Translations under genes and position numbers: made by a program
Shown here: in pieces, positions 21,684 through 22,453 of the stretch
Position numbering within the stretch: position 1 is the stretch's first letter
Layout: each line of letters begins with the position of its first letter
NCBI GenBank assembly: GCA_012518265.1
Contig: JAAYST010000066.1
Span: 1-34,042, forward strand
Source: Candidatus Methanofrustulum fimipullorum
Lineage (GTDB): Archaea; Halobacteriota; Methanosarcinia; Methanosarcinales; Methanosarcinaceae
Direction: 5' to 3'
DNA length: 34,042 nt
The notes under the pieces: model-generated
Seen by the model: the letters and a program-made list of their open reading frames with translations, nothing else
Told to the model about the DNA's origin: nothing
The model's database searches: none

Positions 21684-21698
21684 ACTTTTTATATTTTA
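21684..21698 (+). promoter_or_regulatory. TATA box of the structured RNA
   Basis: TTTTTATATTTTATA lies 30-40 bases before the G+C-rich segment, the right distance for transcription to begin at about 21718-21728. Confidence 0.5.
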
Positions 21699-21724
21699 TA
21701 CTCTCTAATTGTTATTTGCGTATT

Positions 21725-21900
21725 GTATAGGTCCTGGCATGAGGTATTCCGGGCTATCCGGTCGATGATTGATCAGACAACCCCAATGCGTGACATTTAC
21801 GGCGATAAAGCCCTGTAACGAGGGAAACCGAGGGAGACTTTTAGGACTACCGAATCGGAATGATCCTTGGGTGTTAGTTCAGGGCGACAGCCTCTTCTCT
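21725..21900 (+). ncRNA. Structured RNA candidate of unknown class
   Basis: About 170 bases with roughly half G+C stand out sharply from flanks near 20% G+C. A long-range helix joins GCCCTG(T)AAC at 21810-21819 with GTTCAGGGC at 21877-21885, nine pairs with one bulge. Local hairpins include CCGG/CCGG at 21749-21761, GTC..TGA/TCA..GAC at 21761-21778, and AGGA..CCG/CGG..TCCT at 21843-21867. A box A lies upstream and T-rich DNA downstream, so it looks like an independent transcript. I could not match it to tRNA, 5S rRNA, SRP RNA, RNase P RNA or a known riboswitch. It could instead be a leader of the DUF167 gene. No reading frame across it looks like a protein. Confidence 0.65.
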
Positions 21901-21981: not shown

Positions 21982-22311
21982 ATGAATTTTACCGATGCAC
22001 TTCGTTTAATTGAATCCGAATCCGGTGATTGCGTATTTATTGATTTGGAAGTAACACCGGGCGCAAAATCGTCGGAAATCCCGTCGGGTTATAATCCTTG
22101 GAGAAAACGAATCGAAGTCCGGATTTCCGAACAGGCCCAAAAAGGAAAAGCAAACGAACAGCTGATTGAAGACTTTTCTAAATTTTTATCAGTTCCGAAA
22201 TCTTCAATTAAAGTCGAGTCCGGTTTTACAAGTACAAAAAAAACATTGTCCGTTTGTTCGGTCACTCTTGAATTTGTTGAAAAAAAGTTTAAAGACGCCT
22301 TTGAAAAATAA
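21982..22311 (+). CDS. DUF167 (YggU-like) family protein
   Basis: Small cytoplasmic alpha/beta protein of unknown function, conserved in bacteria, archaea and eukaryotes; structures are known but no activity is assigned. The 109 residues include the signature VTPGAKSSEI near 24, RIEVRISEQAQKGKANEQLI at 43-62 (the invariant GKAN core) and FLSVPKSSIKVESG. Length is typical. A CGGGGTTT site precedes the ATG. It lies directly downstream of the structured RNA, with about 80 T-rich bases in between, so it may have its own start or be read from the RNA promoter. A run of 15-bp repeats follows its stop. Confidence 0.9.
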   Translation: MNFTDALRLIESESGDCVFIDLEVTPGAKSSEIPSGYNPWRKRIEVRISEQAQKGKANEQLIEDFSKFLSVPKSSIKVESGFTSTKKTLSVCSVTLEFVEKKFKDAFEK

Positions 22312-22314
22312 TAT

Positions 22315-22359
22315 AAAAACAGAATAAATAAAAACAGAATAAATAAAAACAGAATAAAT
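22315..22359. repeat. Three perfect 15-bp tandem repeats after the DUF167 gene
   Basis: AAAAACAGAATAAAT is repeated exactly three times at 22315, 22330 and 22345, then decays into related A-rich words until about 22450. Confidence 0.85.
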
Positions 22360-22453
22360 ATAAAACAAAATAAATAAAAAATGAATAAACAAAAACAGAA
22401 TAAATAAAAACAAAATAATTTTAAAAACAGAAAATATAAAACAAAATAAACAA

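Follow-up and report, generated by a model that had tools for sequence, protein, structure and literature searches.

A probable Methanosarcinaceae member of the HgcG/Pab40 line of archaeal box H/ACA guide RNAs

The window (the whole stretch of 34,042 nucleotides that was analyzed) comes from a Methanosarcinaceae genome (G000; 81% complete) that is fragmented into 108 contigs and the nearest named relatives of which are Methanimicrococcus. Between genes for DUF5350 and DUF167, with aIF-5A upstream, lies a segment whose G+C content is 0.47-0.51 across about 21720-21880, versus 0.19-0.24 in the immediately adjoining spacers. The original prediction had placed a structured RNA of roughly 50% G+C here and had named the same neighbours; the Pfam assignments and the base composition agree with it on both points. 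A TATA-box-like promoter element, TTTTTATATT, is located at about 21687-21696 on the forward strand, the strand of all features described below. The likely 5' end follows about 25 nt after it. Most Methanosarcinaceae copies show a T/A-rich TATA-like element at this distance as well. Downstream of the RNA the DNA is T-rich. The TATA box and the T-rich exit that had been read from the single sequence were both recovered.

The DUF167 (YggU/COG1872) gene at 21982..22311 (Pfam PF02594) is the conserved downstream neighbour of the RNA. At most loci tested, in many families, it follows the RNA in the same orientation at a distance of 3-506 nt. Wide conservation of the neighbourhood is confined to this gene, and aIF-5A and DUF5350 adjoin the RNA only in the same-genus relative. 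One other genome (G040) carries two diverged copies of the RNA, on contigs C24 (L170) and C9 (L171), each adjoining a DUF167 gene. In the window itself, low-complexity imperfect repeats (aaaaacagaataaat) occupy 22313-22450, between DUF167 and a convergent TldD/PmbA gene pair.

The limits of the RNA gene were set from nhmmer matches and alignment homology at approximately 21715..21895, a better estimate than the 21725-21900 first proposed, and the gene matches our covariance model with 132 bits. Sequence-level homologues are present in 21 of 40 relatives, with a gene length of about 178 nt in nhmmer-extended matches, and 20 homologous copies could be aligned end to end. In this 20-sequence alignment a hand-built structure of 46 pairs left 92.5% of the cells paired. 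Double-sided changes were found at 25 of the 46 pairs, a count equalled by none of 500 shuffles. When the 3' partners were slid by 1-3 columns as a control, the pairing fell to only 35-42%. The covariance model built from the 46-pair structure found the RNA in 37 of the 40 relatives and, across the phylum, in 144 of the 295 genomes sampled. Single-sequence folding provides no evidence for the RNA, since the folding energy of the window copy has a z-score of +1.42 and 189 of 200 shuffles fold equally well or better. The evidence for an RNA beyond chance is comparative, namely the 178-nt homologues in relatives and the strong covariation. These facts bear out the claim of a discrete structured RNA in AT-rich DNA, including the covariation in relatives by which it was to be judged, and we conclude that the locus is a conserved structured RNA gene in its own right.

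Two hairpins of the archaeal box H/ACA type make up the structure. In each, a lower stem, guide pocket, GA-stem and kink-turn are present together with an ACA box. Double-sided changes occur in each of helices 1, 2, 6, 7 and 8, on which the reading as lower stem, internal-loop pocket and GA-stem is based. The kink-turns are recognized by sequence, with GA opposite NNU-GA being invariant or nearly so in both hairpins. The 3' pocket strand begins its guide pairing at a distance of 14 nt from the ACA box in both hairpins, in keeping with the rule for archaeal H/ACA RNAs, by which 14-16 nt separate the ANA box from the pocket top (PMC4652768). The guide bases are largely constant while the surrounding stems covary.

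In hairpin 1, the 5' strand of the lower stem (21717..21725) forms 9 bp with the 3' strand (21784..21792) in the covarying helix 1. The kink-turn and apical stem span 21741..21768, with GA at 21741-21742 and GAU-GA at 21764-21768; the GA / NNU-GA bases are conserved together with a G-C closing pair. ACA box 1 (21793..21795) is a conserved ANA immediately 3' of the 9-bp lower stem. A structure drawn by eye had taken "AGACAACC" as this box, and that choice was rejected because the alignment puts box 1 right after the 9-bp stem.

Hairpin 2 contains the nine-pair helix (21810-21819 with 21877-21885) of the original prediction in reduced form. Six contiguous pairs, 21810-21815 GCCCTG with 21880-21885 CAGGGC, stand as the lower stem (helix 6), while the pairs up to 21819 need bulges. 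The GA-stem (helix 8) starts with its 5' strand at 21828..21837, which ends in the kink-turn GA (21836-21837). It returns through 21859..21871, in which 21859-21863 is the bulge strand AAU-GA of the kink-turn and 21865-21871 the 3' strand of the stem. This stem has seven Watson-Crick or wobble pairs, a mismatch and two sheared G.A pairs, about 10 layers in all, and six of its seven pairs show double-sided changes. The GA / UGA bases of the kink-turn are invariant, UGA being present in all 20 sequences, as is the ACA of box 2 (21887..21889). Hairpin 2 resembles the 10/6/9 fold, to which its Haloferax counterpart has been assigned (PMC4652768). ACA box 2 is enclosed by a covarying outer helix (helix 5), in which GGC (21801..21803) pairs with GCC (21890-21892). 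This helix has 3 bp in the window copy and 7-8 bp in Methanosarcinaceae relatives, and is missing from many distant members.

The RNA had been described as an orphan that fits no known archaeal RNA class. The Rfam search indeed gave no HgcG, RNase P or SRP match for the window copy at gathering or relaxed thresholds; the sole relaxed match in the window, to trypanosome mitochondrial LSU (E 0.58), was rejected as AT-rich noise. The orphan status did not survive, however, a scan with Rfam of seven loci, for the most part distant members that the covariance model had found. At the covariance-model coordinates, RF00064 (HgcG; gathering score 77 bits) matched above its cutoff at L181 (98.4 bits) and L183 (91.5 bits) and more weakly at L178, L168 and L167. 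Sub-threshold HgcG matches at covariance-model loci were also found in five same-order genomes, and none of the 40 relatives passed the Rfam cutoff. Membership in HgcG is therefore transitive and not direct, as intermediates match HgcG at the same loci and the window copy does not. Rfam misses the window copy because of its diverged sequence and because the first of three ancestral hairpins is absent. The locus thus adds no new class; it is a member, so far unannotated, of a guide-RNA family already known. In our judgement the RNA is very probably an archaeal box H/ACA guide sRNA with two hairpins, which represents in Methanosarcinaceae the HgcG/Pab40 line to which Pf7, Afu4 and the halobacterial HP1+HP2 pair belong.

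Three known systems come closest to it. HgcG / Pab40 (RF00064), represented by Pf7 in P. furiosus and Afu4 in A. fulgidus, has the same order of kink-turned H/ACA hairpins, and its last hairpin targets the U1915 equivalent in helix 69, as we propose for hairpin 2 of the window RNA; Pab40 is the HgcG of Rfam (PMC4652768). Unlike HgcG / Pab40, the window copy has no counterpart of the first of the three hairpins, is not detected by Rfam and carries a small helix that encloses ACA box 2. The halobacterial HP1 and HP2, for which the U2586 equivalent and the U1915 and U1917 equivalents, respectively, are the targets, are homologous to stems II and III of Pf7 (PMC2584109). This pair (Hvo1/Hvo2) has two hairpins in the same order, with the same proposed targets as the window RNA (PMC2584109, PMC4652768). 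In the window RNA, too, the proposed U2586-guide hairpin precedes the proposed U1915/U1917-guide hairpin. This RNA differs from the halobacterial pair in its shorter spacer and its GA-stem sequences; it also has an additional outer helix, and its hairpin 1 is complementary to the A-loop as well. The same covariance model finds halobacterial HP2, plus HP1 in several genomes; the pair is also known as sR-h45. Single-hairpin archaeal H/ACA sRNAs (Pf9/Pab160, Afu46) share the lower stem, pocket, GA-stem, kink-turn or kink-loop and ACA, but have one hairpin and other targets.

Outside Methanosarcinaceae, a third H/ACA-like hairpin precedes hairpin 1 in many families (alignment A3: L167:3168-3262 on the reverse strand, L168, L169, L164, L165, L172-L175, L178, L181 and L199). 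A model of this hairpin I found it at this locus in four genomes of one same-order family, and gave no match in the window region, the window genome or 24 other Methanosarcinaceae searched. In place of the three tandem hairpins of HgcG / Pab40, the window RNA has hairpins II and III only. With the third hairpin present in many other families and no match to its model in the 25 Methanosarcinaceae searched, the simplest reading is that an ancestral three-hairpin RNA lost hairpin I in the lineage to Methanosarcinaceae, as would have happened in haloarchaea. As a lead only, the pocket of the third hairpin (CGAGG / GCA) may fit 23S UUGC[UA]CCUCG near E. coli 2496.

The rRNA targets were searched in 23S rRNA from six members of the family or order, and uridines were ranked by a simple energy score of the two arms. 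Other family members were used because the assemblies of the window genome and of its same-genus relative lack rRNA. The guide elements GGUC (21730..21733) and AACCC (21779..21783) of hairpin 1 match 23S 5'-GGGUU[UA]GACC-3' (5+4 bp), being complementary to GACC on the 3' side and GGGUU on the 5' side of a uridine that is presumably E. coli U2586 in the peptidyl-transferase centre. This uridine ranked 3-7 among 858-1366 uridines in the six genomes, and the score of the window pocket there was equalled by 138 of 5000 shuffled pockets. In hairpin 2, GAGGG (21820..21824) is complementary to CCCUC of 23S helix 69 and GUUA (21873..21876) to the UAAC on the 5' side of its uridine. Together they match 5'-UAAC[UA]UGACCCUC-3' (4+5 bp), a site that we assume to be E. 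coli U1915 in helix 69. U1915 ranked 1, 3 and 4 in three of the six genomes and was missed by the simple ranking in the other three, whose pocket shares with that of the window copy two mismatches beside GAGGG. In the window copy, only GAGGG and GUUA of hairpin 2 pair with helix 69, the two mismatches being next to the pocket; only 11 of 5000 shuffled pockets equalled it at U1915. In a guide-target covariation test, the target sites were identical across the phylum where readable.

These complementarities suggest that hairpin 2 guides modification of U1915, and possibly also of U1917, in helix 69. Its guide bases also match 16S rRNA GUAACUCGCCCUCGUG (about 1264, several genomes), which gave the top-ranked uridine in three genomes. 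This site was set as secondary and rejected as the main target, as it needs bases of the lower stem and a third unpaired target base. For hairpin 1 the U2586 equivalent is the probable target, with the exact site ambiguous. A translation-related role, which had been guessed from the neighbouring genes, would agree with such a predicted rRNA pseudouridylation guide.

The ambiguity of hairpin 1 arises from the A-loop. It is possible, though on balance unlikely, that in methanogens this hairpin mainly guides an A-loop uridine (E. coli U2554 or U2555), either replacing or besides U2586. In five of the six genomes the A-loop site scores higher than U2586 and takes first place among roughly 900-1370 uridines, its arms measuring 8-9 and 4-6 bp. 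The window pocket at U2555 was equalled by only 29 of 5000 shuffles, and the extra A-loop guide bases ACAACC are present in 37 of 56 hairpin-1 copies. On the other hand, 15-16 nt separate the first A-loop pair from the ACA box, a spacing that equals or exceeds the 14-15 nt seen in productive Pyrococcus folds (PMC4652768), and in halobacteria it is the U2586 equivalent that has been published as the target (PMC2584109). We favour U2586 over the A-loop because the ACAACC bases are missing from haloarchaeal-looking copies, which retain AACCC and GUC. The A-loop complementarity of methanogen hairpin 1 is unusually long, E. coli 2546-2565 facing window 21724-21786, and overlaps the U2586 guide. A dual specificity of methanogen hairpin 1, for U2586 and for U2554 or U2555 of the A-loop via an overlapping pocket, seems to us rather improbable. 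If true, a single small RNA would direct modification of the A-loop, the peptidyl-transferase centre and helix 69 alike.

A guide function could be carried out as follows. Cbf5 and L7Ae are encoded in the window genome. In H/ACA particles, L7Ae sits on kink-turns and Cbf5-Nop10-Gar1 on the lower part and the ACA box, and the target uridine is offered for isomerisation by the pocket (PMC7991803). By analogy, L7Ae would bind both kink-turns of the present RNA and Cbf5-Nop10-Gar1 would assemble on either hairpin with its ACA box. Pre-23S rRNA would then pair with the pocket strands, and Cbf5 would isomerise the exposed uridine to pseudouridine.

It is worth noting that the same-strand DUF167 gene, following closely at most loci tested, might point to a regulatory small RNA or to an RNA leader of that gene. 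We consider this very improbable. The RNA has a full H/ACA architecture with two pockets and its own TATA element, and in several families that keep the RNA no DUF167 was found beside it in searches with the window's DUF167 protein as the only query. RNase P RNA, SRP RNA and C/D box sRNA hardly deserve consideration, although kink-turns occur in RNase P and C/D RNAs too and a GATGAT resembles a C box by eye. The RNase P RNA of the window genome sits elsewhere (G000:C43, 174.7 bits), neither an Rfam RNase P family (RF00373 included) nor an SRP family matches at the locus, and the RNA shows two units of lower stem, pocket and ACA where a C/D RNA would have a C/D pair and a short terminal stem; with the covarying structure and the HgcG matches, this refutes these identities. 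A non-functional G+C-rich island or decayed gene, with which the folding energy of the single sequence would agree, is likewise refuted, by the compensatory changes and the conservation across the phylum.

The preferred reading is therefore a guide RNA of the HgcG/Pab40 line, at a locus that is in itself ordinary. The RNA offers a concrete example of hairpin loss within a guide RNA family, and the covariance model, which covers much of the phylum, could extend RF00064. In the literature searched we found no annotated or described guide of this kind for Methanosarcinaceae. The apparent orphan would be the H/ACA guide expected for the decoding-bridge and catalytic-centre pseudouridines in Methanosarcinaceae ribosomes.
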